This document shows positions 27,538 through 58,754 of a DNA stretch of 64,000 nt, piece by piece. A program made the position numbers and the translations under genes. The DNA comes from Pirellula sp. (GTDB lineage: Bacteria; Planctomycetota; Planctomycetia; Pirellulales; Pirellulaceae): assembly GCA_021300155.1 (NCBI GenBank), contig JAJTID010000038.1, positions 1-64,000 of the forward strand. The letters are read 5' to 3'. A model generated the notes under the pieces. The model ran no database searches and was not told where the DNA came from. It saw nothing but the letters and a program-made list of their open reading frames with translations. Each line of letters begins with the position of its first letter. Positions within the stretch are counted from its first letter, which is position 1.

Positions 27538-28602
27538 GTGTCAAACGCACCTTCTGGAAAACCGGTCAAGAGCATTGGCGATCTGCTTCGCGAGTTTCGT
27601 GAGCATCGCGATCAAATGAAGTCCGAATTGGGCAAAACCATCGTTGGACAAGATGAAGTGATCGAGCAGTTGTTCGCGGCTATCTTCACTCGAGGTCATT
27701 GTCTTCTAGAAGGGGTGCCAGGTCTAGCCAAAACATTGATGGTCTCGTCTCTGGCAAAGATTCTCGATGTCAATTTCAAACGCGTGCAGTTTACTCCCGA
27801 CTTGATGCCGTCTGACATCACGGGCACCAACGTTCTCGAAGAAGACTCACATGGCAAACGCGAGTTTCGGTTCGTCGAAGGCCCAATCTTTACTAACATT
27901 TTATTGGCAGACGAAATCAACCGAACACCACCGAAGACGCAGGCCGCCCTCCTACAAGCCATGCAAGAGCGAGAGGTAACCGTCGGCCGACAAACCTACC
28001 AGTTGCCCGATCCATTCTTCACAATTGCAACGCAGAACCCGATCGAACAGGAAGGTACCTACCCACTGCCGGAAGCGCAATTGGATCGGTTCATGTTCAA
28101 TATCATGGTTGGATATCCGAGTGCTGAAGAAGAAGAAAAAATTCTCCTCTCGACTACTCGAAGCGAAAAGCCAGAGGTTTGCAAAGTCTTGTCCGCACGA
28201 GCGATTCTCAACATTCAGAAGTTGGTTGCGAGCGTTGCGGTCAGTCCATTCGTAGTCAAGTATGTGGTTGCCTTGGTTCGCGCGACTCGACCTGGTGAAC
28301 CTGACTCGCCTGAGGTGGTAAAGGAACTCCTTGACTTTGGCGCCGGTCCAAGAGCGGGCCAGTTCTTGATCCAAGCAGGGAAAGCGATCGCCGCGATGGA
28401 TGGTCGTTTTAGTGTTGCGATTGAAGACGTACGCAAAATTGCGGTACCTGTGCTTCGCCATCGCCTGAGTACAAATTTTCAAGCACAAGCGGAAGGGATG
28501 ACGTCCGACAAAGTGATTCAACGATTATTGAAAGAAATCAAGGAACCTGCTGTTCCAAAGTACGGCGGAATCGATCCTGCCACTGCACCGCCCGTTCAAT
28601 AG
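27538..28602 (+). CDS. MoxR-family AAA ATPase
   Basis: The protein shows MoxR signatures: IVGQDEVIEQL, Walker A GVPGLAKT at 59-66, NVLEEDSHGKREFRFVEGPIF, Walker B LLADEINR, ATQNPIEQEGTYPLPEAQLDRF with sensor and arginine finger, and a helical lid ending VLRHRL. MoxR ATPases act as chaperones that mature or insert partner complexes, often with DUF58, BatA and vWA proteins. Here those partners are not adjacent: the BatA/vWA operon is about 17 kb away, and no DUF58 gene is in the window. The start is GTG at 27538. It is followed after 19 bases by the MnmM gene. Confidence 0.94.
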   Translation: MSNAPSGKPVKSIGDLLREFREHRDQMKSELGKTIVGQDEVIEQLFAAIFTRGHCLLEGVPGLAKTLMVSSLAKILDVNFKRVQFTPDLMPSDITGTNVLEEDSHGKREFRFVEGPIFTNILLADEINRTPPKTQAALLQAMQEREVTVGRQTYQLPDPFFTIATQNPIEQEGTYPLPEAQLDRFMFNIMVGYPSAEEEEKILLSTTRSEKPEVCKVLSARAILNIQKLVASVAVSPFVVKYVVALVRATRPGEPDSPEVVKELLDFGAGPRAGQFLIQAGKAIAAMDGRFSVAIEDVRKIAVPVLRHRLSTNFQAQAEGMTSDKVIQRLLKEIKEPAVPKYGGIDPATAPPVQ

Positions 28603-42711: not shown

Positions 42712-44229
42712 ATGGAAATGTATCTAGTGTGGGGAGTTATTCTCCTTTCCTTGATTGCCTTTATCGTGTTTTTGGTAAAGGGTTTCAAGGGCTGGGGCGT
42801 TTGGATGACGATTGGGTTCGTCATACTATTCCTCGAATGTTGGGGATTCATCGTCTTTTCTGCAGGTGTGAATGCCAAGCGAATTGCTGCTGTGAAGACG
42901 CACGACTCGCTTTATAACGATATCAAGAAATTGACCGTGCAACGCGACGAAGAGCTGTTTGGCAAGGCTTTTGATCCGGGTCCAGATATGCAACGTTTCG
43001 TGCCGCTTTCAAACGAATTGCATCGATTGATCTTGGAACGAGGTCGGGCATGGAGAGGTGCGAGGGTTACGGCAGCGACACCCGCATCGGCAACTGTCAT
43101 TTTGCCAACGGAACTTGCGAACCTTCCGCCCGACGCGCCTGCGGAAGCAGCCGCTGCGGTAGCTGCGGTACCGGCTCCCGCTGCTGTGCTTGGCCAAGAG
43201 CTAGTCGCTCCGAACAGCGTCGTCTACGTCTTCGGCGAAGATCAACAGATGGTGCCTCGCGTGTATCTCGGCGAGTACAAAGTTACCACTGTTGCAAATG
43301 CACTGGTGACGATCGTTCCTACATCGCCCCTTTCACAAGCTCAGCTTGGTGCACTCAATCAAAGCCCAACGTGGGCAATCTATGAGATGATGCCTCTCGA
43401 CTCGCATACCGCATTCGCAAAGGCAGGCGCACAACCAACCAAAGAAGAGATCTTTGGCAATATGGATCCGGAAGAACTTTCAAATCTTCTCCGAATACCA
43501 TTGGAATTAGCTAAACAGGAACCGAATACTCTCGACATCAACCGAGGAATCAAGGCTCGGGTATTGCAGTCCTACCTTCGCGATGGGACTCAGGCGCCTG
43601 AAGGTACCCCACTCGAGTCATCGGTCTACGAAGTGACCTTTTTGAAAGACTACACAGAAGTCGTCGATTCGACCGACAAAAGAAAAGCTACCGAAGGTGG
43701 CTATTTCGATACGAGCGGACGATCGGTGGACGCACGACTCATGCGTGAAGAAGGAGTCGAAGCGTTTACCTTCAAAGAAGGCGATGAGTTCCGACTCGAC
43801 GGTTTGAAAGCAAAAGAGCTCGAAAAGGAAGGGGTTGTAAAGCTGGGGGCCCAGATATTCATTCGACCACTGAACGATTATGAGTTCAGCTTCCGAGATC
43901 TACGTCGATTGACGTTGGCTGCCATGCAAAATGCGATTCTGGTGAATCGAGAGATCGAGGTGGTCAACCGCACAGAAAAGATCTCACGCGAGGAGCTGAT
44001 CAAAGGCGAAGAGAATGGCCGTCGATATCTTCTCGACAAAGGAATGTACGACAAAGAGATGGCGGTTATCCAGGCAGAACAAGAGCGACTGCAGAATGAT
44101 GTGAATGCGAAAAAAGCAGAACTTAGTCAGCTCTATGCAAAGTTAGTGGAGTACCATGATAAGCTTGTCAGCAGTCAGGCTGGTTTTTCCAAACCGATGA
44201 ACGGAACGCCAGTTTTGGTTTCTCCATAA
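42712..44229 (+). CDS. Two-TM membrane protein of unknown function
   Basis: I do not recognise this 505-residue protein. It has two N-terminal TMs (VWGVILLSLIAFIVFLV and WMTIGFVILFLECWGFIVF), an Ala/Pro-rich linker at about 120-160, a central beta-rich part, and a C-terminal coiled coil (AVIQAEQERLQNDVNAKKAELSQLYAKLVEYHDKL). Most of it should lie on one side of the membrane. It is rightward and followed after 222 bases by the BatA/vWA operon, which it may join. No catalytic motif is seen. Confidence 0.75.
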   Translation: MEMYLVWGVILLSLIAFIVFLVKGFKGWGVWMTIGFVILFLECWGFIVFSAGVNAKRIAAVKTHDSLYNDIKKLTVQRDEELFGKAFDPGPDMQRFVPLSNELHRLILERGRAWRGARVTAATPASATVILPTELANLPPDAPAEAAAAVAAVPAPAAVLGQELVAPNSVVYVFGEDQQMVPRVYLGEYKVTTVANALVTIVPTSPLSQAQLGALNQSPTWAIYEMMPLDSHTAFAKAGAQPTKEEIFGNMDPEELSNLLRIPLELAKQEPNTLDINRGIKARVLQSYLRDGTQAPEGTPLESSVYEVTFLKDYTEVVDSTDKRKATEGGYFDTSGRSVDARLMREEGVEAFTFKEGDEFRLDGLKAKELEKEGVVKLGAQIFIRPLNDYEFSFRDLRRLTLAAMQNAILVNREIEVVNRTEKISREELIKGEENGRRYLLDKGMYDKEMAVIQAEQERLQNDVNAKKAELSQLYAKLVEYHDKLVSSQAGFSKPMNGTPVLVSP

Positions 44230-44451
44230 ACCAGCGCAGCTTCACGCGACTTTCAAAATACAATTCATCGGACTATTCGAAACCTAGGTTGACTCGAATA
44301 GCCGCGGCGCCGTCCGAACCGTTTTTGAAAATCTCTCCCGCAAGTTCGCGATCAATTTCGCAACATTCTTGACTTCGCGTCAGGATAATTGCATCCTACG
44401 GGTACTTTGTTCGAGTACTGAGTATGTTTGGGAGATTTCGATCGGAAGCGT

Positions 44452-46479
44452 ATGACCTTTTTGCAACCATTGCTTTTGATCGCGTTGCCTCTGATCGCAA
44501 TGCCGATCGTCATTCATTTAATGAATCAACGTAGGCATTTGGTTGTCCCCTGGGCTGCCATGCAGTTTCTGCGACGAGCGAAACGACTCAATACGGGAGT
44601 TGCCAAACTACGGTACTGGCTCATCATGGCGATGCGAATGGCAGCGGTCGCTGGAGTGATTCTCGCATTAAGCCGCCCGCTTGCCACTGGTTGGGTCGGA
44701 GGCCTAGGCTCGAATGATCGCATTACCTTGATCGTGTTGGATCGATCGCCAAGCATGGAGCTTCAAGACACAACGACGCAAATGTCGAAACGCACGTCGG
44801 CTCTTGAACGTCTCGATACGTTGTTCGCGACAACCGGGAGTTCTGGCAGACGTTTCTTATTGACTTCAGGGCTAGAAAAACCCATTGAGATCACGTCGCC
44901 GACCAAACTGACTGGGCTGACCGAAACATCTTTCGTTGCTGCGAGCTCCGACATTCCAGGGCTTCTCGAAAAAGCCATCTCTTTCGCTGACGACAACAAA
45001 CTAGGAGCGGCGGACATCTGGGTTGCTTCGGACCTTCAGTCTGGCGACTGGCAACCATCAAGCGATCGTTGGCGCGCGATCCGTGAACAGGTAGGTAAAC
45101 GCCCAGCCACTCGATTGCTATTGCTTAACTTCCCAAACAACGGGGACACGAACTTTTCGGTTTCTGCAACCAATATCAAACCCATTGAAATCAATGGAAA
45201 AGTAGAAACGAGTTTCGATATCCATTTGCACCAAAACTCAGGTCCCTTAGTCCGACGCACTGTTCCCGTACTTGTTCGAATGGGTGGTATACAGAGCACC
45301 GTGGAAGTCACCATGCAAGGTGAAGACGGCTCTGTCACTGGCGTGCGAGTACCAATGGAGGAAGCTTCGCCATCACAGGCGGGTCTGCTAGAGATTCCTC
45401 CCGATGCGAATCTAGCTGATAACCGATTTCATATCGTGTCGCAAAAAACTCGCTCGAGGTCGGCGGTGGTTGTGGGGCAAGCGGGCGAAGAAGTCGATCT
45501 CCTCGCTTTAGCGCTTTCCACCCAAAACGACAACTCTCCAAAAGTTAATCTGCAATCGATTGATCCGACGATGCTACCCACCATCGATTGGAAGAGTTTA
45601 AAGCTCTTGGTCTGGAATCAAGGTAACATCAACTCGGCGACAGCAAGACAGCTCGAGTCCTTGATTGAGAGTGGTGGAACTGTGGTGCTGTTTCCTCCTT
45701 CCGTTGAAACAGATACCTCATCCGAACTTGTTTTGCCATTTGGATTGCAATGGAGTCCAATGGAGCAGTTAGCGACCGCAGAACGCGTTGAATCATGGCG
45801 CACCGATTCCGACCTGTTGCGAAATACGGAAGGTGGCGACTCGCTACCGCTTAGCGAAATCCGGTGGAATCAACATTGGCAAATGAACTCCAAAGGTTTG
45901 ATCGCGTTGGCAAAGTCGGCAAGCGGAAAATCAATGCTATCGAAGTTCCCGACCTCCAATGGACAACTCTTCGTTTGTCACACTACCGTTTCTGAATCAG
46001 CCTCCAATCTGAAAGAAGATGGTGTTTGCCTCTACATCATGCTTCAACGCGCTCTACATGATTCGGCGAGTCTCGCTGATCAATCTCTTTGGACTGCAGG
46101 AATGCCGATCCCATTCACACTGCAAGAATGGACGCCAGCGAATGATGTGTCACAGCAAGTCATTCCATGGGAACGCAGTATTCAGCCTGGTTCGTATTCC
46201 CTCGAAGATAATATGATTGCCGTGAATCGTGCCATCGCAGAAGATACGTCAGCGTCATTACCCAAAGAAACTTTGGAAAGCATGCTTCAAGGAGTAACGT
46301 ATCAATCGATCGTGGACGATGCCGGCAAACCCAACTCGTTAGCTCGAGAAATCTGGAGAGTCTTCATTGTAGGGATGATTCTGTTCTTGCTCATGGAAGC
46401 ATGGCTCTCGATGCCCAATCGAGTGTCTCGTGCATCTGTGCGGGAGAATACGATCGCTCGAAAAGGACTAGCAGCATGA
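44452..46479 (+). CDS. BatA-domain vWA membrane protein
   Basis: The protein starts with the BatA N-terminal domain (FLQPLLLIALPLIAMPIVIHLMNQRRH...VPWAAMQFL, residues 1-45), a second TM at about 56-74, and a vWA domain with a full MIDAS motif DRSPS at 97-101. A beta-rich central part and a C-terminal TM (VFIVGMILFLLMEAWL) follow. BatA/vWA proteins with MoxR ATPases build poorly defined envelope complexes. ATG 44452 is preferred to a TTG at 44428. The stop overlaps the next start by four bases (ATGA), and it begins the tightly coupled seven-gene run. Confidence 0.88.
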   Translation: MTFLQPLLLIALPLIAMPIVIHLMNQRRHLVVPWAAMQFLRRAKRLNTGVAKLRYWLIMAMRMAAVAGVILALSRPLATGWVGGLGSNDRITLIVLDRSPSMELQDTTTQMSKRTSALERLDTLFATTGSSGRRFLLTSGLEKPIEITSPTKLTGLTETSFVAASSDIPGLLEKAISFADDNKLGAADIWVASDLQSGDWQPSSDRWRAIREQVGKRPATRLLLLNFPNNGDTNFSVSATNIKPIEINGKVETSFDIHLHQNSGPLVRRTVPVLVRMGGIQSTVEVTMQGEDGSVTGVRVPMEEASPSQAGLLEIPPDANLADNRFHIVSQKTRSRSAVVVGQAGEEVDLLALALSTQNDNSPKVNLQSIDPTMLPTIDWKSLKLLVWNQGNINSATARQLESLIESGGTVVLFPPSVETDTSSELVLPFGLQWSPMEQLATAERVESWRTDSDLLRNTEGGDSLPLSEIRWNQHWQMNSKGLIALAKSASGKSMLSKFPTSNGQLFVCHTTVSESASNLKEDGVCLYIMLQRALHDSASLADQSLWTAGMPIPFTLQEWTPANDVSQQVIPWERSIQPGSYSLEDNMIAVNRAIAEDTSASLPKETLESMLQGVTYQSIVDDAGKPNSLAREIWRVFIVGMILFLLMEAWLSMPNRVSRASVRENTIARKGLAA

Positions 46480-48644
46480 CATTGGAATTGACGACATTCT
46501 CGATCCTGGTCTCATGCATTGGTGTCCTTGTTACGATCGTCTTGGGTTGGACTGCTTGGAAAAGAAATGACTACCATTGGAAGAGTGGAGTCCTTGAAGT
46601 CGTGCGTTTCGGCTTGGTTTGCTTAGCCATCATCACTTTGTTGAAGCCTGAGTATGTTACGGTGGAGAGACCGACGACCGAGGGGACAGTGCTCTTTCTG
46701 CATGATGCATCCGCAAGTATGCAAACCGAAGATGAAAGCGATGCCACCGGTTACCATTCGAGACAAACGCAAGTGGATCCGTGGCTAGACAAAGAAAAAT
46801 GGACGAGCGTACCTTCATCTACAACGATTGCAATGGAGCCCTTCGATTCCAGCGAGTATTCTTCGAAGGGGACCGATATTCAAGAGGCATTGATGCGAGC
46901 CATAGAACGCTATCCTGATTTGCGGTCGATCGTACTGGCGTCGGATGGTGATTGGAATCTTGGTGGGAATCCTATTGAGGCTGCGAAAGTGCTTCGTCAA
47001 CGCGAGATTCCTGTCCATACAGTTTCGGTTGGATCAGAACAACGCATGCCGGACCTCGCGATTCAGAGCTTTGAATTGCCAACTTTTGCTGTCGTCGGCA
47101 AACCTTTGCGTGTTCCCTTTTCCCTGTCCAGTTCGTTAGCGCAAGACACGGATGCAACAATTCAGCTAGAGCTTCCTGGAGGAACAAAACTAAGTCAGAC
47201 TATTCGTGTGCCCGCGATGGCCATCGCCAAAGGCACATTCGAATGGCGTCCTGAAAAAGTCGGTGAAGAGAGTATCACGATTCAGATACAACACGATCCA
47301 CGCGACCGAATCGCTTCGAACGACTCCAAACGAGTTGCCATCTCGTTTCGCAATGAATCACTCAAGGTGTTGATGATTGAGTCCTTTCCTCGATGGGAGT
47401 ACCGATACACAAGGAACGCATTAGAGCGAGATCCCGGAGTAGAGGTACACTGCTATCTACTTCACCCTGATATCAAGGAGTTGGGAGATGGTCGAGGATA
47501 CCTAAAATCATTTCCTCAAGATGATGCTTTGTTTGCATACGATGTAGTTTTTCTCGGCGATATCGGAATTGGACCCGATGAACTTACAGAATCGCAATGC
47601 CAACAACTGCGGAGGCTGGTCCAATCGCAAGCGAGCGGACTTGTCTTCATGCCAGGCATGCGGGGTCGACAATCCTCATTGCTCAACTCGCCTCTCGAAG
47701 AACTTTTCCCGGTAGATTTAGAGGCGGCTCGCCCTCGTGGTGTTGGAGCCTCCAAGCCTGGACAATTTCAATTGACAGAACAAGGGCACCAGAGCTTGCT
47801 CACACGATTTGAGTCCAACGAACAAGAGAATGAACAGGTATGGCGGAGTCTTCCTGGCTTTTATTGGTATGCTTCCGTCGAACGCGCTCGAGCCGGTAGC
47901 CAAATCTTGGCGACGCACGAACGCGACTCCAACCGATTCGGACGCATCCCATTGATCGTCACCAAGACCTTTGGCAATGGCAAGGTATTGTTCATGGGCT
48001 CCGATGGCGCCTGGAGATGGCGCAAAGGTGTCGAAGACAAATACCATTATCGCTTCTGGGGCCAAGTTGTTCGTTGGATGGCCTACCAAAGATCCATGGC
48101 TGCAGGTGAATCGATGCGATTGTTTCACGCTCCTGATCGCCCTAACGAAGGAGACGTGGTTACGCTCCAAGCAAACATCATGGGCAGCAATGGCGAACCC
48201 TTACAGGATGGAACTGTCACCACATCCGTTGTCGATCCCAATGGCAAAATGGAGATTGTAAGCTTGAAACGAGACGATCCTCAAGCTTGGGGACTGTTTC
48301 GCGGAGAGTTCAAGCCAAAAATGGGTGGTGAATTCAAATTGACCACTCACTGCAAACAGACTGGAAAAACGCTTGAATCTACACTCTATATTCAAAGTAC
48401 CGAACGAGAACAGATTGGGAAACCAGCGCGGCCGGATGTGTTGCGTGATATCGCCAATGCGACACGAGGTAAGTTTACTTCGATCAGCGACATCGAAGAT
48501 GTTCTCAAAGTAGCAACAATAGCTCGTGAGCCAGAGCCGGTAGAACGACGACTTCAATTATGGAGCCATCCGCTTTGGGGAGCCGCTATACTGTTCCTGT
48601 TGGGTTTGTTTTGGGCCGGTCGTAAATGGATGGGGTTTGTATGA
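46476..48644 (+). CDS. Membrane vWA protein with glutamine-amidotransferase-like fold (paralogue B)
   Basis: The 722-residue product repeats the layout of the protein at 37476: two N-terminal TMs, a vWA domain with DASAS at 77-81 and ASDGDW, and blocks such as IESFPRWEYRYTRNAL, DVVFLGDIGIGPDEL, TKTFGNGKVLFMGSDGAWRWRKGVEDKYHYRFWGQ and a C-terminal TM. The last block is nearly identical between the two. ATG 46476 overlaps the BatA stop; the earlier frame start lies inside the upstream gene. The stop overlaps the next start, so the proteins are probably made together. Confidence 0.85.
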   Translation: MTLELTTFSILVSCIGVLVTIVLGWTAWKRNDYHWKSGVLEVVRFGLVCLAIITLLKPEYVTVERPTTEGTVLFLHDASASMQTEDESDATGYHSRQTQVDPWLDKEKWTSVPSSTTIAMEPFDSSEYSSKGTDIQEALMRAIERYPDLRSIVLASDGDWNLGGNPIEAAKVLRQREIPVHTVSVGSEQRMPDLAIQSFELPTFAVVGKPLRVPFSLSSSLAQDTDATIQLELPGGTKLSQTIRVPAMAIAKGTFEWRPEKVGEESITIQIQHDPRDRIASNDSKRVAISFRNESLKVLMIESFPRWEYRYTRNALERDPGVEVHCYLLHPDIKELGDGRGYLKSFPQDDALFAYDVVFLGDIGIGPDELTESQCQQLRRLVQSQASGLVFMPGMRGRQSSLLNSPLEELFPVDLEAARPRGVGASKPGQFQLTEQGHQSLLTRFESNEQENEQVWRSLPGFYWYASVERARAGSQILATHERDSNRFGRIPLIVTKTFGNGKVLFMGSDGAWRWRKGVEDKYHYRFWGQVVRWMAYQRSMAAGESMRLFHAPDRPNEGDVVTLQANIMGSNGEPLQDGTVTTSVVDPNGKMEIVSLKRDDPQAWGLFRGEFKPKMGGEFKLTTHCKQTGKTLESTLYIQSTEREQIGKPARPDVLRDIANATRGKFTSISDIEDVLKVATIAREPEPVERRLQLWSHPLWGAAILFLLGLFWAGRKWMGFV

Positions 48645-50563
48645 TCGTTCTTCTGAGCTTGATCTCCAAGATTAGGAATGTAGCCCCCACATTCACCTGC
48701 TTTGCTTTCATGTGCATGGCTTGCGTTCATCTGCCTCTCGTGTGCCGTGCTGAGGATCAGACCGAGCCAAGCAGTTCGATGGATTCTCTTCAAGATATCG
48801 AAAAGAAAATTTTGCAGGTTTTACCCAAAATCAAACCCTGTGTTGTCTGCGTTCAAACGGGAGGAGGATCTGGCTCGGGGGTCATTGTATCAACAGATGG
48901 TCTTGTATTGACAGCCGCTCACGTGATCGATAACGCAAAGGAGCTCACCATCGTCTACCCGGATGGACGCAAATTCAAAGGGGAAGCCTTGGGCACCTAT
49001 GGCCCCGCCGATGCGGGCATGGCGAGAATTCTAGAAGGTGCCCCCCACCCTTTTGCAGAGGTTCACTCTGGCAAAGGTCTTAGTTTGCATGAGACCGTTA
49101 TCGCGTTAGGACATCCTAGCGGATTCGATCTTCAGCGAGGGCCTCCACTGCGAATCGGGCATGTTACTGCGCTAGATGAAAACTACATAACGACGGACAC
49201 TTCATTGATTGGTGGAGACTCGGGCGGACCATCCTTTGATCTAGAGGGAAAGGTACTTGGTATTCACTCCCACATCGCTGGTGAGATTCAAACCAATCGC
49301 GATTCACACATTGCTAAATTCCATGAAAATTGGGAACAGATGAAAACGGGCGTGCATCACCCACAACACTACAGCAAATCGATAGGAAGTGGAAAACCCC
49401 AGCCCGGACAGGATCAAGAAAGCAAAACAGAGCCGGTCCCACCCCGAGATCCCAACGAGCAATCACGATTGCAAGACCTTGCTCAAAAGGCAAAAGCGAG
49501 CGGCGGAAAAATAAAGCTTAGCCGAGATGAGTTGCGTGAATTGCGAAAGAATCTTGCTTTGCGAACAGAAGCTCTCGCGCCTGCTGGTGGCACGAGGTTA
49601 ATCGATAAATGGGCAACGAAATGGATTACTGGATTCCAGTCGCTACTTTCCAACGACAAAGCATCAAGTGACCGACCGTCGGTCGTCAAGGTGCAAGTGG
49701 ATGGACGGAATGTTGCGTTGGCAACGTGTGTACATCGAGACGGTTGGTTCGTTACCAAGGCTTCAGAGGTCAAGAACCGTTCTGTGAAGCTGGAGATTTC
49801 AGACCAAGAGTCTCTTTCGGCTGAAGTAAAGAGCGTTGATGATGCTCTGGATCTTGCGCTTCTCTATGTCAAGACGGCTCGTAGTATTCCCATCCGGCTA
49901 CTACCGAATATTGGTAGCTCGGATACTTCGAAACAGCCGATGGGCAGTTTATGTTTTTCGGTAGGCACTTCAGACAAGCCCGCTGGCTTCGGTGCTATAA
50001 GCGTTGCGGCTCGTCCACTGAACGGAAAGTCTGGGGCATTTCTAGGGGTGGGAGTCAAACCTGAAAAGGAATCACTTCGAATTGAAAGTGTCGCTCCAAA
50101 CTCCCCTGCATCCAAGGGCGGACTCAAGGTGGGAGACTCGATTGTGACCATCGACGGTACAGCCGTTCGCTCGGAAGAAGAACTGCAGAAGATTGTTCAA
50201 TCTCATTTGGAAGGGGACCAGCTCAAAATAGATATTGAGCGTGGAGATGCATCGCTTACCGTTCTAGCCAGATTAGAAGATGCAACGCAACTTGCTCCAA
50301 TGCCTGGAGCACGCGAACAGGCGATGGATAGCATTACTGCCTCTTTAAGCAAACGTCGTTGGAACTTCTCGAATGGAATTCAACACGACTGTGCGATCTC
50401 CGCCAAGGACGTCGGCGGTCCCTTGGTCGGCCTGGATGGTCGAGTCATGGGAATCAATATCGCTCGGGCTGGTAGAATTCAATCCTATGCGATACCCATC
50501 TCGGACGTGTGCAGCTTCTTGATTTCGGCCAACATGTTCACCGTGGAGGGAGTGACCAAGTGA
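48641..50563 (+). CDS. Deg-like serine protease with a second, inactive protease domain enclosing a PDZ
   Basis: A signal or anchor segment (about 1-36) leads into a trypsin-like domain with an intact triad: His94 (TAAHVID), Asp124 and Ser194 in GGDSGGP. A Pro/Gln/Lys-rich linker and a helix at about 240-310 follow. The second half repeats the protease pattern with VTKASEV (Ser375 for His), DALDLALL (Asp404 kept) and KDVGGPLVG (Val591 for Ser). A PDZ domain (GVGVKPEKESLRIESVAPNSPASKGGLKVGDSIVTIDG) sits inside this second domain, at about 464-545. So it is an active protease joined to a pseudo-protease. It is coupled by ATGA upstream and GTGA downstream. Confidence 0.87.
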   Translation: MIVLLSLISKIRNVAPTFTCFAFMCMACVHLPLVCRAEDQTEPSSSMDSLQDIEKKILQVLPKIKPCVVCVQTGGGSGSGVIVSTDGLVLTAAHVIDNAKELTIVYPDGRKFKGEALGTYGPADAGMARILEGAPHPFAEVHSGKGLSLHETVIALGHPSGFDLQRGPPLRIGHVTALDENYITTDTSLIGGDSGGPSFDLEGKVLGIHSHIAGEIQTNRDSHIAKFHENWEQMKTGVHHPQHYSKSIGSGKPQPGQDQESKTEPVPPRDPNEQSRLQDLAQKAKASGGKIKLSRDELRELRKNLALRTEALAPAGGTRLIDKWATKWITGFQSLLSNDKASSDRPSVVKVQVDGRNVALATCVHRDGWFVTKASEVKNRSVKLEISDQESLSAEVKSVDDALDLALLYVKTARSIPIRLLPNIGSSDTSKQPMGSLCFSVGTSDKPAGFGAISVAARPLNGKSGAFLGVGVKPEKESLRIESVAPNSPASKGGLKVGDSIVTIDGTAVRSEEELQKIVQSHLEGDQLKIDIERGDASLTVLARLEDATQLAPMPGAREQAMDSITASLSKRRWNFSNGIQHDCAISAKDVGGPLVGLDGRVMGINIARAGRIQSYAIPISDVCSFLISANMFTVEGVTK

Positions 50564-53500
50564 ATAGCGAATCTAAAAGAAACATGACTCGCGAGGCCGG
50601 GACCATCCAAACGCTTCCCGAAGGTATTCGGCAAAAATTAACGGACTATCGGTCGTTGGTTCGCAGGATCAAGATTGGCGAGGGAATCGTAGCAGGGCTG
50701 TTTGGCTTTCTTGCATCCTATGCGATGATCTTTGCCATCGATCGATTTGTCGAAACGCCTCATTGGTGTCGTCTACTTTTCTTTCTGTGCGGACTGATCG
50801 GTTTCGGAGTGTACCTGCCTTATATGCTACATCGGTGGGTATGGAACACTAGGCAATTGGAGTCGGTTGCAAGGCTTCTCTCGCATTCTTTCCCATCGTT
50901 GAGCGACCATGTTCTCAGTATCGTGGAATTAGCGAAGAACAGCCACGAGCAGAGACGCAGCCCACAATTGATTGCCGCGGCGATGGCGCAAGTGGACGAT
51001 AGGCTTTGCCGTGAAGATCTATCGAAGGGTGTCCCCAATCCAAAACTAAAACGGTGGTTATTCGGAGCGAGTCCATTCGTTCTGGTAGCGATTGGAATTG
51101 CGATTGTCGTTCCGTCGGTTGCTCAAAATACTTGGTCGCGATTTATGCTCCCATGGGCCGACATCGATCGATATACGTTTGCGCGTTTCGAGAAATTGCC
51201 AAATGAGATCGTGGTTCCGTATGGTGAACCATCAATGCTTCATGTTTCTCTGAAGCCCGATTCGGATTGGAAGCCAAAAACCGCTAATCTCGCGGTAGCC
51301 AAGAATCGTTTGGATGCTAATCAAGTTGCAAACAACTACGAGTTTTCCGTTCCAGGTCAGTTAGAACAGTTACCGGTATCCCTCCGCGTCGGCGATGCAA
51401 CCCAAACGATGCAACTGGTCCCGATGGTGCGCCCCGAACTTAGCCAGATCATCGCAAGAGTTTCTTTACCTGGATACCTGCAACATTCTGAACCACAATT
51501 ACTACCAGTAAAAAGCAGCGCGGTTTCGATCCTGAAAGGAAGCAGCGTTTCTATTCAAGCGAAAGCAACTCGTGAACTCTCCTCGGCATTCGCAACCATT
51601 CGGACATTGCCTGAAGCGACTGTTGAAAGCGCAGCCAAAGAAGATAATCGAAACGCGGAGTCGCAAACCTCTTTGACGGTGGATGGCGATTCCTTCATGA
51701 CCGAATTGATCTCCTTTGCCGAATCATCACAACTCGAGCTTGATTGGAGAGATACACACGGATTGAGCGGCTCGAAGAAAAGCCAATTCATGCTGAGAGG
51801 TATCGATGATTTTGCGCCCGTGGTAAGTTGTTCTGAATTCCCGGATCCGCTGATACTCTTGCATAGTGAGCTGCTAACATTTCAAGTCAATGCTTCCGAC
51901 GATTTCGGATTAAAGCATATCGGAATCGAGTGGAGTTCCGCATCTCCGGATGGAACCACAGCACCCGTGAAAGGTGAACGACTCGTTGTTGCCGGCAACA
52001 GCACGGCTAACAAACTTAGCGGACTGGCCACACTTTCTTGCAAGAATGAAGACATTGCACCTCAACGACTACAGATTCGTGCATTTACCGAAGATCTAAA
52101 GCCGGATCGTGGACGGATTTACTCCGTTCCTTATGTGATCCACATCATGTCTGCCGAAGAGCATGCACAATGGATCGCGGAACAGCTTCGTCGATGGAAA
52201 GCGAAAACCGATGCCATCTACGAAGAAGAATTGCGACTTCTCGACGAGAATCGACAAATTCGAGACCTGGCTGCCGGCGATATCGATTCCGAGTCGACAA
52301 GGGAACGGATGAAGAATCAAGCGAACGCAGAGCGCGACAATGCAAAGCGGCTTGAGAACGCAGTCGAAGACGGCGCGAAGATATTGGAGCAGGCTCTGAG
52401 AAACGAAGAGATACGTTCGAAGCAAGTTGAGGATTGGGCCAGATCTCTTCAGAAGCTAAACGAGTTGTCGAACGAACGAATGCCCGACGTCGCAGAGCAG
52501 ATTGGTCGAGTCGGTGAAACTCCTGCCTCAAAGTCATCTGACTCGAAGCCGAGCGATGCTGAATCCAGCTCGCCCCCCAGTTTGCGGGACAACGAAAAGT
52601 CCCCTTACGACAAGCGACCTGCGGAGGGTTCTGGCAGCGGAGCTGGTGGCGGGTCGTCGCTGCCAGAAACTCAACTTGGGCCAGGTGCCAGCAAAATGGA
52701 ATCTGGCGGCGACAAGGAGAAAGACTCCGAGGAGAAGAATGATACCAATGAGAAGATGGACCGCGCAGTCAAAGACCAATCCAAACTAATCGAAGAGTTT
52801 CGAAAAGCCAAACAGGCCTTTGAACAGTTGATGGCTGAATTTGAAAACAGCACTTTCGTCAAACGGCTGAAATCGTCCTCGCGTTTTCAAAAAGAGATTG
52901 TGAACTTGCTGACACAAGCCATCGGTAGCAACTTTGGACTCAGTTCCTCGAAAGCGAAAGCCGCTCAGCAAGAGACAGAGGTCATCATGCAACATCAAAA
53001 GAAACTCGCGGAAAGTATAGCCGCAATTCAAAGTGATCTGGCTGCTTACCAGAACAATAACCCCTCAGCAGATCGTGAAGCCGTTCTCAAAGACATGAAG
53101 GACCAGAATACTCAAATCAAGCTTGAAGAAATGCCACTTCGGATGGAAAGAAATCTTCGAGGCGATGCACTCAATCGTAGCGAATATTGGGCTGACACTT
53201 TTGATCGATGGGCCGAGGAATTAGCCGGGTCCGGCGGAGGTGGAGGTGGAGGGGGAGGAGAGGAAAAAGACAAATTACCACCCGCGATTCTGTTAGAAAT
53301 CATGCGAATCATCGGCGATGAGATCGATCTGCGAGATGAAACACGAACCCTTAATCAACTTTGGATACCCGATAAAGAGATGTCAGAAGATCTGCAGGAT
53401 CGAACGACTGCACAAGCGGTCGAGCAAATGGCTATCCAAGAAAGAACACTCAATGTCATCCAAGACATCCAAGCTCTCCCCAACGGGAGTGGCTTTGGAG

Positions 53501-53856
53501 AGGAGCTACAGAAACTCAACAAAGGTGTTCAAGCGATGGACGATGCATCCTCGATGTTGAGTGATTTGCGACTTGGGGAGAATGTCATTGCAGCAGAGAC
53601 AGCCGCTATCGAAGCCTTGATTGAAGCCAAACGAGGCGGCGGCGGTGGAGGAGGTGGAGGCAGCACACCTGGCATGGGAGGCGATGGTGGCACCACCGAT
53701 CGTTCCCCGCTTGACATGATTGGCCCCGGATCGGATCGCAATGCAAAAGTTGCGAAACGACAAGTCGGTGAAGCTACCGGCAAGACAGGCCGAACGCTCC
53801 CGGAACAGTATCGGCGTGGACTGGATGAGTTTCTTAACAAAGCAACTCGACGATAG
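50560..53856 (+). CDS. DUF4175-type membrane protein with long coiled coils
   Basis: The product of about 1098 residues has two TMs near residues 45-95 and one near 165-185, a beta-rich periplasmic part with repeated Ig-like blocks, a long helical region from about 530 (EEHAQWIAEQLRRWKAKTDAIYEEELRLLDE), Ser/Gly/Glu-rich linkers and two pure glycine runs. It matches planctomycete DUF4175 proteins that accompany BatA/vWA genes. A GTG at 50560 overlaps the upstream stop (GTGA) and an ATG lies 24 bases on; I use GTG. It may be a scaffold for the vWA proteins; role not known. Confidence 0.85.
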   Translation: MNSESKRNMTREAGTIQTLPEGIRQKLTDYRSLVRRIKIGEGIVAGLFGFLASYAMIFAIDRFVETPHWCRLLFFLCGLIGFGVYLPYMLHRWVWNTRQLESVARLLSHSFPSLSDHVLSIVELAKNSHEQRRSPQLIAAAMAQVDDRLCREDLSKGVPNPKLKRWLFGASPFVLVAIGIAIVVPSVAQNTWSRFMLPWADIDRYTFARFEKLPNEIVVPYGEPSMLHVSLKPDSDWKPKTANLAVAKNRLDANQVANNYEFSVPGQLEQLPVSLRVGDATQTMQLVPMVRPELSQIIARVSLPGYLQHSEPQLLPVKSSAVSILKGSSVSIQAKATRELSSAFATIRTLPEATVESAAKEDNRNAESQTSLTVDGDSFMTELISFAESSQLELDWRDTHGLSGSKKSQFMLRGIDDFAPVVSCSEFPDPLILLHSELLTFQVNASDDFGLKHIGIEWSSASPDGTTAPVKGERLVVAGNSTANKLSGLATLSCKNEDIAPQRLQIRAFTEDLKPDRGRIYSVPYVIHIMSAEEHAQWIAEQLRRWKAKTDAIYEEELRLLDENRQIRDLAAGDIDSESTRERMKNQANAERDNAKRLENAVEDGAKILEQALRNEEIRSKQVEDWARSLQKLNELSNERMPDVAEQIGRVGETPASKSSDSKPSDAESSSPPSLRDNEKSPYDKRPAEGSGSGAGGGSSLPETQLGPGASKMESGGDKEKDSEEKNDTNEKMDRAVKDQSKLIEEFRKAKQAFEQLMAEFENSTFVKRLKSSSRFQKEIVNLLTQAIGSNFGLSSSKAKAAQQETEVIMQHQKKLAESIAAIQSDLAAYQNNNPSADREAVLKDMKDQNTQIKLEEMPLRMERNLRGDALNRSEYWADTFDRWAEELAGSGGGGGGGGGEEKDKLPPAILLEIMRIIGDEIDLRDETRTLNQLWIPDKEMSEDLQDRTTAQAVEQMAIQERTLNVIQDIQALPNGSGFGEELQKLNKGVQAMDDASSMLSDLRLGENVIAAETAAIEALIEAKRGGGGGGGGGSTPGMGGDGGTTDRSPLDMIGPGSDRNAKVAKRQVGEATGKTGRTLPEQYRRGLDEFLNKATRR

Positions 53857-53903
53857 AAGTACAAAATGACCAAGGACCTAGTATACGAAATGGAGATGTC
53901 TTA

Positions 53904-55043
53904 ATGCTTTCAACGCAACACAACAAAACGGGCACCAAGATTGCCATGATGGTTCTTCTTTGTTTATTGGGCGTAGAGAAGCTGTCGGCGCAGGCTATTC
54001 AGTTTGCCCCGGCCTTTGGACAAGATGAAGTCTCCATCAAGGATAACTTGGTAAGCTCGATGAAGATCGAGATCGACGCGATCCGACGAATCGCGAATCT
54101 TCCTGAGAATACTGTCAAGAAACTAAACATTGCGGCGATCCAAGCGGTTGATGCAGCCATCAAGAACAATCCACCACAGAGAATGGGGGGGCGTATGCCA
54201 CCACCGCTTCCTCGCGCAGGAGGTAAGCCGCCGAAAGTAGGTACGCTATCTGACGAAGATGAAGAGGACAAAGCAAAGAAGGAGGAAGAAGACCCCGCTG
54301 CTAATGCAAACTTTCTTCCCGGGATGTTTTCTCAGATAGACATAAGGACTGTCAAGAAACAAGAGCCATGGAAAAAGGTTCTCGCTTCATTAGATCCTGA
54401 GAAAGTCGCCGCGATCGATGCGTTTGAAAAGAAGCGAACCAAGGATCTTCGGGATTTCCGAGTGGCATCCAAAGTCCAAGAGCTAGACGACATGCTTTTG
54501 CTATCCGCATCACAACGAACAGAGTTGACGGAAATCGTGGATCGTATTTTGGGCGACCATCTCGCTCAACAACCTCGCAATAATGGAATCTTTGCAGGAG
54601 GTGCTATGGTGGTCGTAATGGCAGGACAAGCAAGCAAAGAAATACCAAAGGACGAACTCAAAAAGGTGTTGTCCGAGGTCCAGTTTGCTGAATACGAAAA
54701 CATGCTTAACCGACAAGCCCAGGGTCCGTTCAACGCCGCGATGCCTCCTGCTGGTTTCGGCAAGAACAAGAAGAACAATAATGATGATCCTCAGAGTAGT
54801 TCGCTTGGCTTTACCTTCAAGGAGAAGGAGAGTGGACTGAGCGTAGAATCGGTTACTCCGGAGTCTCGTGCGGATCAAGCAGGACTCAAGGCTGGGGATA
54901 TCATCGACGGTATCGATGGCAAACCCATCGATAACACAGTGCAACTAAAGCGAGCCATCGCGCTGAACACTTCTAAGACCTTGACCATGCAAGTGAAGCG
55001 CGAAGGTACCGATTTGAAGCTTGAGTTTCCGAGCAAGAAGTAA
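53904..55043 (+). CDS. Exported PDZ protein with helical body
   Basis: This 379-residue product has a signal peptide (IAMMVLLCLLGVEKLSAQA), a helical body with two charged segments (DEDEEDKAKKEEEDP, and a Gly/Pro/Met-rich MGGRMPPPLPRAGGK), and a C-terminal PDZ at about 300-375 (LGFTFKEKESGLSVESVTPESRADQAGLKAGDIIDGIDG). It contains no protease motif. It starts 47 bases after the DUF4175 gene and ends three bases before the next gene, so it belongs to the same transcript. It may present clients or bind the C-termini of partner proteins. Confidence 0.8.
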   Translation: MLSTQHNKTGTKIAMMVLLCLLGVEKLSAQAIQFAPAFGQDEVSIKDNLVSSMKIEIDAIRRIANLPENTVKKLNIAAIQAVDAAIKNNPPQRMGGRMPPPLPRAGGKPPKVGTLSDEDEEDKAKKEEEDPAANANFLPGMFSQIDIRTVKKQEPWKKVLASLDPEKVAAIDAFEKKRTKDLRDFRVASKVQELDDMLLLSASQRTELTEIVDRILGDHLAQQPRNNGIFAGGAMVVVMAGQASKEIPKDELKKVLSEVQFAEYENMLNRQAQGPFNAAMPPAGFGKNKKNNNDDPQSSSLGFTFKEKESGLSVESVTPESRADQAGLKAGDIIDGIDGKPIDNTVQLKRAIALNTSKTLTMQVKREGTDLKLEFPSKK

Positions 55044-55046
55044 CCT

Positions 55047-56117
55047 ATGAGGCTAACATATCAACTTTGCAGCATAGCAGTTTGCCTTTATGTCCTGAGC
55101 AACTGCCTGTTGGCAAAGGGGCAAAGCGTTCGATCAGGTATCGACGTACCAGCCGATGTCGAGCGCATCTCGAGCGCTGCCGTCGAGTGGCTAGCCAAGA
55201 ATCAAACAAAGGCCGGGAATTGGGACGGTGGACAAGACAGTCACAATGCCGAATCGGGAAACTGCGGAGTGACAGGACTGTGCGTAATGGCTTTCCTGTC
55301 CACGGGAATCGACCCGAACTTTGGCGAGTACGGCACCAACATTCGAGCAGCCCTTCGCCACATGATCGCTAGCCAAGATCCCAAAACAGGTTATTTACCC
55401 AACAGCATGTATCATCATGGTTTCGCGATGCTGGCATTGGCTGAGGCGTATGGAGCAGTCGACGAAGAATTGCTTTGGTCCGACCCCGAGATTGATATCC
55501 CCAAGGATCGACGAAGGACCCTTGGAGAAGCCCTCCATCTCGCCGTTCGATGCGCAGTCACGTCGCAAGAAAACAATCCGTGGAAAGCTTGGAGATATCG
55601 GCCCGAATCACGGGATGCGGATACTTCTGTTACGGGTGCTGTCCTCGTCGGATTGTTCGCCGCGAGGAACGCAGGCATCAAAGTTCCTGACTCCAACATC
55701 GACGATGCGTTAGTTTACATGCGCGAGGTCACCGGAAAACGAGGAGACGTGAACTATACGCCGGGATTTAGTATGGGGACAGGTACAAACCTCCCCGCAA
55801 TCGCTTGCTTGGTTTACACGATTAGTAAACATCAAGATTGGCCGGAGTACCGCGCTGTTTCTGCTCTCGTAAAGTCGAACCGTGAAGTCGTCGATCCTAG
55901 CTATCCTCACTACAACATGTATTACATGTCACAAGCGTTGTTCCAATCCGACTTTGATTCATGGACTAAATGGAATCAAATCACGACTCGACGTCTCCGA
56001 CGTGAACAAAACAAAGATGGTAGTTTTGACTCAAACCATGGACAACCCTACGGCACTGCGATGTCGGTGTTGGCTCTAGCTCTCAATTATCGTTTTTTAC
56101 CCATTTATGAACGTTAG
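55047..56117 (+). CDS. Exported prenyltransferase/squalene-oxidase-fold (alpha-alpha barrel) protein
   Basis: A signal peptide (LCSIAVCLYVLSNCLLAKG) is followed by repeated helical units of the terpene-cyclase type: AVEWLAKNQTKAGNWDGG, HMIASQDPKTGYLP, WRYRPESRDADTSVTGAVLVGLF and LRREQNKDGSFDSNHGQPYGTAMSVLALAL. Such exported proteins in planctomycetes are not true cyclases as far as known, because the DxDD motif is absent; DADT is the nearest. It overlaps the next gene by 11 bases and lies three bases after the PDZ gene. A binding role is likely. Confidence 0.82.
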   Translation: MRLTYQLCSIAVCLYVLSNCLLAKGQSVRSGIDVPADVERISSAAVEWLAKNQTKAGNWDGGQDSHNAESGNCGVTGLCVMAFLSTGIDPNFGEYGTNIRAALRHMIASQDPKTGYLPNSMYHHGFAMLALAEAYGAVDEELLWSDPEIDIPKDRRRTLGEALHLAVRCAVTSQENNPWKAWRYRPESRDADTSVTGAVLVGLFAARNAGIKVPDSNIDDALVYMREVTGKRGDVNYTPGFSMGTGTNLPAIACLVYTISKHQDWPEYRAVSALVKSNREVVDPSYPHYNMYYMSQALFQSDFDSWTKWNQITTRRLRREQNKDGSFDSNHGQPYGTAMSVLALALNYRFLPIYER

Positions 56118-58578
56118 AACTATATCCATATGTATCGGAGGCCTGTTCGCACTAAGCAGTTTCGGACTACCCTTCGTCCGTTCTCAGGATCGAGATAACA
56201 CTTCAAGGCCTGCTGTCAATGTAGAGTGGCGAAACGGTGACATTCTACCGGCTGAGCTACTTGCCATGGACCAAAAGACCATTCGGTTGCAATCCAGGCT
56301 GTTTTTGGAACCGATTGTCATTGATCGCAGCGAGATTCGTTCGCTCCGATTCGTCAAACCCTTGAAATCGGATCGTGAATCTGGGAATGTCATTCTATCG
56401 ATGACTAATGGGAATAAGCTTCGTGGCACGATAACTCAGGATAACAAAGACTCTCCCTTTCTCGAGTTCATGGACGATGTCATTGGGAAACTGCAAGTCC
56501 CAAAGAAATTCATCCAACAAAACTCTAGTTCGAGTACGGCCCTCTATGAATGGAATGGAAGCACTGAGCCATGGGTGAGCCCCAATTCAGATCCATTATC
56601 CTGGGTCGTAGACGATCTAGGATGCTTCGCGAGCAAAGCATCCAATCAATCGGCTCTCTTGCCACTTGCAATCAAAGGTTCCTTTGCGATTGAAGCGACT
56701 TTGCATTCACCCTGGCGTCCTGACTTCGTACTTTCGTTTGGCAAAGATCCCGAAGAGTCAATCCGTGTCGAGACGATTGAAAAATCGCTTATCATCGGAA
56801 CTTCCACCGACTTTGAAGTCGTTGAAGATTTGCCGAGCAAGGGATGGACATACACGTTTCGCCTCGAATGGAATGATGAAAAACGCGAGCTGTCAATTTT
56901 GCAGATGAGCGAAAAAAAGCCAGATGAAACAGCAATAGTAACGAAAAGTACTCGTTCAGAAAACGTCGAAGGAATCTTCCTGACCAATCGCGGCTCTTCA
57001 CTTCGACTAGAGAAGTTGCGTTTATTCAACACATTGACGAGAGAAAACGAAGAGACTCAGGTAGCGAATGTTCCTTCGAATGCGAAGAGCGATCAGCAAC
57101 TAGCAGCAGATGATAGTTCATGGTGCACGCTTCGTTTTGCAAACAACACAGTTATCACAGGGAACGTTCTCAGTTTTCGGGAAGGTTTCTTTACGATTGA
57201 AAACGAATTCATTCAGAATGCGGCGATTCACTTCACGTCACAACAATTAGTAAAGCTGGACCAGCCTATAGCGCCAGCAAACGTATCTCGACCGCATAAG
57301 CTCAGACTCGGTACGAATGCAATCCTCGGAGAATGTACCATTCGGGGAGGAATGAACCCGATCCTCTGGAAATGTGTTGGGCAAGATTTGCCAGTCCCCC
57401 TTTCGACCGATTTGCCAGCCACGATTCAGTACGACTTGAATCCAAAACAACGCCCCAGTGGTTCTCAGTTTCCGGATATTGTCTATGCAACGAATGGTGA
57501 CAATCTGCCAGCGAGCTTGTTGAAGATGCGGGAACAACAGATAGAGATCGACTTACCATTTATTTCCGGATGTCGAATCGGAACATCCCATCTGCAAGCT
57601 ATTGAGCTCGCATGTAAGGGCAAACGGCTGGAACACGGTTTTACGAAAGAGTCTCGGGAGCAACTACTATCGTTTCCTCGCGGAACTGAACTATCGCTTT
57701 ACCCCCATGCGCTCGTGGGAAAGAATGATGACTTGTTGCGTGGCATGATCATGAGTATTTCGCCTACGGCAATCGAGATGGATGTGAAACTTGAGCCGTG
57801 TCTTATAGGTCGCGATGCTGTCAATGCGATCGTCTTCCTGCCGATCGCATCGTTAGATTCCAAGAGCAACGAAAACGAACGCAAAGTAAAGGACAACGAA
57901 GAGGATTCGATTACCCTCTCGCTTACCAATGGATTTCGAATCTCAGCAAATATACTGAACGTAGAAGACACAACTCTAAAGTGCCGATCTTCCTGGTTGG
58001 GCGACTTTGATATCTCGACGGAATGGATCTCCGCATTGTCGTTTGGCTCGGTGACTGTTAGCGAATCGTCACTGTACGCGAATTGGGAAGTGAAGACACT
58101 TCGTGATCCGGCGTGGCTTGAAACTCCGAAAAATGAACAAGCGAAATCACTGTTGGGAACAGTGGTAGAACCATTTTCACTATCGACACTTCAAGGTGAG
58201 ACATGGAATTTGCAAGACCACGCGGGTAAAGTCATTATTCTCGATTTTTGGGCGACATGGTGTGGACCATGCGTCAAATCCCTTCCCGAGTATCTTTCTG
58301 TCGCTAGCAAGTACAACACGAACGATGTTGTTTTTCTTGGCGTGAACGCGACAGAAACGCCAGAGGTTGTGCGAGAGTTTGTGTCGAGGCAGAAACTGGA
58401 CGCCTTTGATACGCTATTTGATTTTGATGGTGAACTGACCAGAAAGATGCAAGTGAATGGGATCCCGCATACTGTCGTGATCGGGCCAACGGGCACCATC
58501 GAACACGTGCATGTCGGTTATTCCAAAAACGCGTCGAAGGAACTCGACACCAAAATCAACAATTTCCTTAGAAAGTAG
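56107..58578 (+). CDS. Multi-repeat protein fused to a TlpA-type thioredoxin domain
   Basis: An N-terminal signal peptide (about 1-26) leads to repeated 40-50-residue units with the pattern N-G-D-x-L-x-A/G-x-L...T-I...I...I-x-x-L at about 39-82, 95-138, 340-385, 398-440, 458-502, 530-578 and 600-648. A LamG-like beta sandwich lies between units two and three (about 165-305). The C-terminus is a TlpA thioredoxin (684-823) with Cys719-Gly-Pro-Cys722 and the cis-Pro787 in VNGIPHTVV. It should reduce or exchange disulfides outside the cytoplasm, perhaps of partners in this operon. Last gene of the run. Confidence 0.86.
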   Translation: MNVRTISICIGGLFALSSFGLPFVRSQDRDNTSRPAVNVEWRNGDILPAELLAMDQKTIRLQSRLFLEPIVIDRSEIRSLRFVKPLKSDRESGNVILSMTNGNKLRGTITQDNKDSPFLEFMDDVIGKLQVPKKFIQQNSSSSTALYEWNGSTEPWVSPNSDPLSWVVDDLGCFASKASNQSALLPLAIKGSFAIEATLHSPWRPDFVLSFGKDPEESIRVETIEKSLIIGTSTDFEVVEDLPSKGWTYTFRLEWNDEKRELSILQMSEKKPDETAIVTKSTRSENVEGIFLTNRGSSLRLEKLRLFNTLTRENEETQVANVPSNAKSDQQLAADDSSWCTLRFANNTVITGNVLSFREGFFTIENEFIQNAAIHFTSQQLVKLDQPIAPANVSRPHKLRLGTNAILGECTIRGGMNPILWKCVGQDLPVPLSTDLPATIQYDLNPKQRPSGSQFPDIVYATNGDNLPASLLKMREQQIEIDLPFISGCRIGTSHLQAIELACKGKRLEHGFTKESREQLLSFPRGTELSLYPHALVGKNDDLLRGMIMSISPTAIEMDVKLEPCLIGRDAVNAIVFLPIASLDSKSNENERKVKDNEEDSITLSLTNGFRISANILNVEDTTLKCRSSWLGDFDISTEWISALSFGSVTVSESSLYANWEVKTLRDPAWLETPKNEQAKSLLGTVVEPFSLSTLQGETWNLQDHAGKVIILDFWATWCGPCVKSLPEYLSVASKYNTNDVVFLGVNATETPEVVREFVSRQKLDAFDTLFDFDGELTRKMQVNGIPHTVVIGPTGTIEHVHVGYSKNASKELDTKINNFLRK

Positions 58579-58754
58579 TCGCTTCTATCGACTTCAGTTT
58601 GTATGACGCATTGCGGGGACACAGTTATTTGCGAATTTACCCTCCGTTGGAGGAGATGTTTTGCGGGTTGGAATCTGCTCAAATACGAAGGTCAGCTGAT
58701 GGATTGGTTACCAGTTCCGTTGCCCAGGAGACTCGCCATGGCACGCATCATCGC

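Follow-up and report, generated by a model that had tools for sequence, protein, structure and literature searches.

A protease-containing variant of a conserved MoxR-vWA gene cluster in Pirellula, with a putative role in the cell envelope

To our knowledge, operons that combine a MoxR ATPase with proteins carrying a von Willebrand factor A (vWA) domain are widespread, and their clients are mostly unidentified. One such operon, RL3499-RL3502 of Rhizobium leguminosarum, encodes a MoxR protein together with a DUF58 protein, a protein with a BatA domain and a membrane protein of the vWA/GATase-like kind, and the title of a 2011 paper by Vanderlinde links operons of this type to envelope integrity and cell morphology. 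Here, we describe seven consecutive + strand genes (g1 to g7, positions 44452-58578) in a 64,000-nucleotide stretch of DNA from Pirellula sp. (assembly GCA_021300155.1, contig JAJTID010000038.1), referred to below as the window, which lies on contig C241 of the 6.46 Mb source genome (G000, 260 contigs). Judged from their sequences, these genes most likely form one transcription unit and represent a variant of a conserved gene cluster. The fuller reading that we favour, with moderate confidence, is that this probable operon serves an envelope complex dependent on MoxR and DUF58, to which proteolytic quality control would have been added. Gene order, concordant trees, purifying selection and the missing MoxR-DUF58 head were observed directly; the mechanism is inferred.

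Two papers describe MoxR ATPases as acting in the chaperone-like maturation of dedicated complexes, with vWA proteins as partners (PMC3893208, PMC7159879), and the former reports that in Rhizobium the MoxR protein RL3499 is important both for cell morphology and for the integrity of the membrane (PMC3893208). RL3499 and RL3500 are also marked TGI in the table of a section on growth-impaired genes in another study (PMC5118466). In Leptospira, moxR lies within the bat gene cluster, whose BatA protein was named after Bacteroides aerotolerance (PMC3557215).

Gene order and conservation of the seven-gene unit

The features of the unit are as follows, G024 being the genome of its nearest relative and MIDAS standing for metal ion-dependent adhesion site.

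44333..44431, + strand: conserved non-coding block 5' of g1 (identical to G024, locus L039, in 89 of 99 alignment columns)
44452..46479, + strand: g1, BatA-type vWA membrane protein (PF07584, 55.6 bits; TIGR02226, 64.3 bits)
46476..48644, + strand: g2, membrane protein with a vWA domain (MIDAS D77xS79xS81) and a GATase1-like stretch
48641..50563, + strand: g3, exported trypsin-like (HtrA-type) protease plus pseudo-protease (PF13365, 1.1e-30; PDZ_2, 1.4e-15)
50560..53856, + strand: g4, membrane protein of 1098 aa whose family has no name (378 relatives in genome_contigs)
53904..55043, + strand: g5, exported helical X-family protein with a C-terminal PDZ domain (PDZ_2, 8.5e-13)
55047..56117, + strand: g6, exported alpha/alpha toroid with a predicted squalene-hopene-cyclase fold (AlphaFold2 pLDDT 89.8)
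56107..58578, + strand: g7, exported protein ending in a TlpA/ResA-like thioredoxin domain (WCGPC; PF00578, 2.5e-18)

ATGA overlaps join g1 to g2 (46476-46479) and g2 to g3 (48641-48644), a GTGA overlap joins g3 to g4 (50560-50563), gaps of 47 and 3 bases separate g4 from g5 and g5 from g6, and g6 and g7 overlap by 11 bases (56107-56117). The first-pass annotation of the window had described this order and these junctions correctly, omitting the g4/g5 gap, and had taken all seven products to be exported or membrane proteins. This agrees with a simple hydropathy scan, the source of all export and topology statements here, which found an N-terminal hydrophobic segment in 7/7 proteins, with two to three segments in g1, g2 and g4 and a single signal-peptide-like segment each in g3, g5, g6 and g7. 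Measured against G024, dN/dS was 0.05-0.16 across g1-g7, and all seven genes are under purifying selection.

The block at 44333-44431 is a probable promoter or 5' leader of the operon; its local alignment with G024 leaves the rest of the 222-base gap uncovered. Past the stop codon of g7 merely 12 columns align, so that the stretch conserved here consists of the putative leader and the seven genes. A sigma-70 scan of the window gave 11 matches against 15.8 expected in shuffled sequence, none of them inside the block, and a terminator scan gave 27 matches against 18.3 in shuffles, including one on the + strand just past g7 (58641-58653) that by itself is no evidence; a tRNA scan of the window found none. 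G024 also shares two flanking genes, one encoding a phosphomannomutase-like protein and the other, upstream of the operon, a protein of 505 residues (window 42712-44229), which had no family match at E<=0.01 in Pfam or NCBIfam and was not found in the examined stretches of G021, G332 and G346.

We call a cluster window-type if g3 lies between the vWA gene and g4 and the X protein, one of a family of small helical exported proteins encoded between g4 and the toroid, carries a PDZ tail; the toroid is the squalene-cyclase-fold protein of the g6 family. This variant is known from five genomes in two genera: G000 itself, G024, which has the same seven genes, G021, in which the order MoxR-DUF58-BatA-vWA-g3-g4-g5-g6 runs to the contig end, and G332 and G346, from another genus, which have MoxR-DUF58-BatA-vWA-g3-g4-g5-g6-g7. 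Comparison of gene order, the check proposed in the first-pass annotation, thus bears out conserved linkage in all four other genomes, in G021 as far as its contig end. The MoxR-DUF58 head present in G021, G332 and G346 is missing from the window and from G024, and a search of the source genome with PF01882 (DUF58) gave no match on C241. Among 26 same-genus relatives, close g4 relatives were found only in G024 (94% identical) and G021 (49%), the other strong matches being about 33-37% identical. In trees of vWA, BatA, g4 and toroid proteins, each built from 25-28 hand-chosen rows (the toroid tree without G021, where the gene is cut by the contig end), the window-type rows formed one clade with Shimodaira-Hasegawa-like approximate likelihood ratio test (SH-aLRT) supports of 99, 100, 100 and 99, respectively.

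Linkage also extends beyond this variant, as a protease-free order of the same families (MoxR, DUF58, BatA, vWA, g4, X, toroid and a beta-rich protein that may or may not end in a thioredoxin domain) is found in three phyla. A search of genome_contigs with a g4 alignment yielded 378 relatives, of which 80 were kept; by their labels these loci come from Planctomycetota, Verrucomicrobiota and Poribacteria, one being labelled "bacterium" only. Upstream linkage was testable in 54/80 loci (at least 7.5 kb 5' of g4) and downstream linkage in 61/80 (at least 5.5 kb). On the g4 strand, vWA was found upstream in 40 of the 54 loci, BatA in 41, DUF58 in 37 and MoxR in 35; DUF58-BatA-vWA were consecutive in 36, with MoxR first in 32. 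Downstream, 57 of the 61 loci carried a toroid, 58 a g7 relative, and 56 both in order. Counts of genes in a row skip unlabelled and opposite-strand open reading frames (ORFs), which were called by a greedy longest-ORF method, and the linkage counts are probably low because opposite-strand ORFs hide genes such as the DUF58 expected in L161. In 20 further loci, hand-picked in 18 genomes from the 111 g4-carrying genomes of a sample of the order, vWA lay directly 5' of g4 in 17 and a toroid 3' of g4 in 17. Some places occur twice among all loci (L117/L039, L118/L040, L132/L098, L186/L043, L188/L045 and, among the 20, L210/L165), and therefore the residue-conservation counts given below for MIDAS, WCxxC and toroid positions contain a few duplicates. 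A divergent arrangement was seen in L120, L123 and L135 (Fuerstiella, Thalassoglobus and a relative), where MoxR-DUF58-BatA-vWA points away from g4-toroid-g7; L123 belongs to the cultivated Thalassoglobus neptunius KOR42.

The recurrence of the same four added families (g4, X, toroid and g7) in three phyla makes them likely clients or partners of the MoxR-vWA pair. As the window-type variant demonstrates, the set can also take up a protease.

The MoxR partner and the scattered ordinary copy

An ordinary copy of the cluster is also present in the source genome, but it is divided over three places: contig C71 carries MoxR-DUF58-BatA, the window a vWA gene (37476-39698, - strand) and contig C80 g4-X-X-toroid-g7. 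The lone vWA membrane protein at 37476, about 4.8 kb 5' of g1, falls inside the ordinary vWA clade. The hidden Markov model seeds were hand-chosen and include the window genes, this protein and some relatives, which match by construction; its profile score is therefore a seed artefact and its placement rests on the tree.

It had been suggested that the MoxR protein encoded at 27538 could be the ATPase of the unit. This was right in kind, a MoxR gene being found 5' on the same strand in 35/54 clusters, but not in the gene named. In a tree with 13 of the 14 source-genome genes that match AAA_3 strongly (the one on C30 was left out), only C71 fell inside the cluster clade (22 rows, SH-aLRT 99), while 27538 fell outside and grouped with C223, with the caution that ten source-genome rows, the window's included, were flagged as long-branch. 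On a profile built from cluster MoxR proteins, with neither of these two among them, C71 scored 622 bits and 27538 scored 446, cluster members mostly reaching 597-673 with a few lower. MoxR 27538 was rejected as the partner ATPase by its placement in the tree, and we infer that MoxR-DUF58 of C71, acting in trans, is the best candidate partner. The gene at 27538-28602 adjoins an rRNA-methylase-like gene (28622) and matches bpMoxR (PF20030, 48.2 bits).

In the favoured reading, a cytoplasmic MoxR ATPase and its vWA partner DUF58, supplied from C71, would cooperate with g1 and g2, vWA proteins that are anchored in the membrane and predicted to face outwards. Together they would assemble, maintain or remodel a periplasmic complex that has g4 as its basis and also contains the X protein, g7 and the toroid g6; the integrity of the envelope would depend on this complex. 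In the window-type variant, g3 and the PDZ tail of g5 would add peptide recognition and proteolysis, as a quality control of the complex or of its clients.

Several observations weigh against this reading. The ordinary copy is scattered in the genus, as in the single-contig genome G006, where vWA lies at 229 kb, MoxR at 2789 kb and g4 at 3853 kb; because G006 is a single contig the scattering is real, and tight linkage is therefore not needed for function. In 14 of the 54 testable clusters, including the three divergent loci, vWA is missing upstream of g4 on its strand, and at some junctions in relatives the genes lie 26-92 bases apart. The g4 family is patchy, with matches at E<=1e-60 in 111/396 genomes of the order sample and 15/392 of the phylum sample (source genome included), and is therefore accessory and not part of an envelope system of the whole phylum. 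Lastly, Leptospira biflexa strains with deleted bat genes are reported to have no phenotype in growth or shape (PMC3557215).

The scattered copy and the missing head genes in the window could also speak for chance neighbours or genes under shared regulation only, which serve separate envelope tasks. However, the order is kept in three phyla, the trees are concordant, and start and stop codons overlap at several junctions in relatives, and we regard this explanation as very unlikely. The scattered ordinary copy provides an internal comparison within the same genome, and the question of the partners is directly testable through g4 and the single cluster-type MoxR.

The seven proteins and alternative explanations

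Family matches confirmed the labels proposed for g1 (BatA, PF07584), g3 (trypsin and PDZ), g5 (PDZ) and g7 (thioredoxin-like domain). In g1, an N-terminal double membrane anchor is followed by a MIDAS (D97xS99xS101) and a C-terminal membrane segment, and the MIDAS residues were kept in 58-59 of 60 aligned rows, one row being gapped and one showing an S-to-T change. For g2, the vWA label is supported by a conserved MIDAS, with D77, S79, S81 and D157 present in 61/63 rows and two gapped, but its sole Pfam match was PF07090 (GATase1_like) at 20 bits, below the cut-off of 27. Judging from hydropathy and from the charged loop that separates the first membrane segment from the second, we expect the vWA domains of g1 and g2 to lie on the periplasmic side, and likewise the soluble parts of g3-g7.

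The first domain of g3 has a catalytic triad (H94/D124/S194) that is invariant in 14/14 aligned relatives. In its second domain S375 replaces the histidine, and the nucleophilic serine is replaced by cysteine in 12/14 and by valine in 2/14 (the window and G024); the PDZ domain, as placed by alignment, sits inside this pseudo-protease, between its two parts. An intact protease and two PDZ-bearing products would fit a proteolytic quality-control operon centred on g3, with the other genes as anchors or substrates. Against this, g3 was found in 3/80 clusters of genome_contigs and in 0/20 further loci, and 18 of 20 g3-family loci carry no other cluster gene apart from two weak g7-profile matches (L099 and L103), the remaining two being G332 and G346. 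We therefore consider a g3-centred operon unlikely, and protease plus pseudo-protease, part of the mix named in the first-pass annotation, is not supported as a core component.

The strongest g3 matches outside the window in the order sample (396 genomes) were those of G021, G332 and G346, while G024 gave no row and was evidently not drawn; in the class sample (347 genomes), the window-type g3 profile at E<=1e-90 matched the source genome only, the known carriers evidently not having been drawn. Pairs of HtrA-like protease and pseudo-protease, in tandem or fused, are spread over many genomes of the order: away from the cluster, tandem pairs were seen in L105, L106, L107, L108, L110, L113 and L115 and fused ones in L099-L104, L111, L112, L114 and L116, cysteine mostly replacing the catalytic serine of the second domain in the aligned fused proteins. 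A defence system was also considered and rejected, the PADLOC match being limited to the trypsin domain of g3.

The label DUF4175 given earlier to g4 finds no support. DUF4175/TIGR02302 proteins have N-terminal membrane helices followed by a long soluble region, an overall layout that g4 shares, but 0/12 members of the g4 family matched PF13779 or TIGR02302 at E<=10, nor was any other Pfam or NCBIfam match at that threshold convincing. A PF13779 search of the source genome gave two loci under the cut-off, neither of them g4; the best match, just below the cut-off, lies on another contig (L207, G000:C144:2837-3322). In the predicted model of g4 (mean pLDDT 74.9, pTM 0.41), membrane helices at the N-terminus precede a beta-rich region (about 216-530), and the rest of the protein consists of long helices and glycine-rich linkers. 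Its best structural neighbour was RbmA (Z 10.0, 2.7 A over 101 residues), followed more weakly by chains of complement C3/C5, CD109 and alpha-2-macroglobulin (Z 8-10, large rmsd), and these neighbours of a predicted model are too weak for a functional assignment.

Between g4 and the toroid, 57/85 clusters have an ORF that matches the N-terminal part of g5 at E<=1e-3 (47 at 1e-5), two of the 57 being window-type; 17 clusters have no same-strand ORF of 80 aa at this place. The PDZ tail matched, in 100 loci, only window-type g5 and the PDZ of window-type g3. That the g5 PDZ is a copy of the g3 PDZ was unsupported, as its best matches are mostly other g5 PDZ domains; for the window g5 PDZ, the g3 PDZ of L118 scores nearly as high as the second g5 and above the g5 of L132.

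The terpene-cyclase fold proposed for g6 agrees with its predicted structure, for which the nearest solved chain was 2sqc (Z 25.7, rmsd 3.0, 277 aligned). The window protein (P0006) has no Pfam match itself, and SQHop_cyclase_C was matched by 32/38 alignment members at E<=1. If g6 were an active class II terpene cyclase, the operon could modify a polyprenyl or hopanoid envelope lipid, and besides the fold its conserved residues might point this way (H124, D192 and T193 in 82/82 rows, D190 in 79/82). However, the fold is not diagnostic of function, because sugar epimerases and mannanases with the same fold score Z 23-24. The highly conserved motif of g6 is DADT (190-193), of the form DxDT and not the DxDD acid motif of cyclases, the positional equivalence of the two not being established; g6 is, moreover, a single-domain, exported protein, and no lipid-synthesis gene was recognised among the seven in Pfam and NCBIfam. 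Lipid modification thus appears highly improbable.

The general fold of the toroid is also that of the complement/macroglobulin thioester domain. It is conceivable, if highly improbable, that the cluster is an undescribed ATP-driven machine spanning the envelope and common to planctomycetes, verrucomicrobia and Poribacteria. In it, periplasmic vWA proteins would relay the action of a cytoplasmic MoxR-DUF58 motor to a macroglobulin-like pair divided over two proteins, g4 with its beta-rich region and the separate toroid g6, and the window-type variant would couple its own protease to the machine. No thioester motif was found among the invariant toroid columns of the g6 family alignment.

The thioredoxin domain of g7 scored 75.8 bits with the ResA-like model NF002854, below its cut-off of 170, and the long N-terminal region of g7 had no family match; its relatives in the cluster are beta-rich proteins with or without the thioredoxin tail. 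Together with the BatA domain, the intact WCGPC of the window and the aerotolerance origin of the name BatA (PMC3557215), this would be compatible with an oxidative or thiol repair system of the Bat type, in which damaged envelope proteins would be reduced by BatA/vWA proteins together with the g7 thioredoxin domain. WCxxC was found in 50/78 collected relatives of g7, and contig ends truncate some of the 28 that lack it. In L097 (16791-19424) and L098 (16639-19242), however, the thioredoxin-like domain is kept and both catalytic cysteines are replaced, and 0/18 Poribacteria rows matched a thioredoxin profile built from the other rows. Disulfide chemistry, another part of the mix named earlier, is therefore not supported as a core function, and as the Leptospira bat deletions noted above had no oxidative phenotype either (PMC3557215), thiol repair is a doubtful alternative, as unlikely as the g3-centred one.

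Comparison with described systems

The interpretation of the seven genes in the first-pass annotation is thus supported in part. Its statement that no function has been described holds for the whole combination within the searches made, but less so for its core, as RL3499 of the similar Rhizobium operon has been linked to the envelope. Among the papers listed in the literature searches, none was recognised as describing the extended planctomycete cluster, which is no proof of absence, and the main texts of essential-gene studies in Planctopirus limnophila and Verrucomicrobium spinosum mention no MoxR, von Willebrand, BatA, DUF58 or squalene.

As in the bat operons of Bacteroides and Leptospira, g1 is a BatA protein with an N-terminal membrane anchor and a MIDAS-bearing vWA domain; unlike in these operons, g1-g7 include no BatD or tetratricopeptide repeat match at E<=0.01 in Pfam and NCBIfam, and we know of no counterpart of g4, the toroid or g7 in bat operons. 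Similarly, g3 has the trypsin fold, intact triad and PDZ domain of HtrA/DegP proteases, but lies under the cut-off of every NCBIfam model it matched (TIGR02037, 148.5 bits against 416.2) and is fused to a pseudo-protease inside which, judging from the sequence, the PDZ domain lies. The predicted alpha/alpha toroid of g6 resembles squalene-hopene and other class II terpene cyclases in fold, and the thioredoxin fold and CxxC of g7 resemble those of TlpA/ResA thiol-disulfide oxidoreductases.

The logic of a MoxR and vWA chaperone pair is shared with the MoxR-vWA ternary systems described with VMAP, iSTAND, FtsH or beta-propeller proteins (PMC7159879), but none of g1-g7 matched VMAP, STAND, FtsH or beta-propeller families in Pfam and NCBIfam. 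The MoxR that matches the bpMoxR family model PF20030, at 27538, lies outside the operon and is not of the cluster type.

In gene content, the MoxR-DUF58-BatA-vWA core of the conserved cluster resembles the Rhizobium RL3499-RL3502 operon. The window shares with that operon a BatA protein followed by a vWA membrane protein (g1 and g2), but its own operon has neither MoxR nor DUF58. Compared with RL3499-RL3502, the planctomycete cluster has g4, X, the toroid and g7 in addition, and the window-type also has the protease and the PDZ tail; the four-gene core is of a known kind and the window-type cluster is a new variant.

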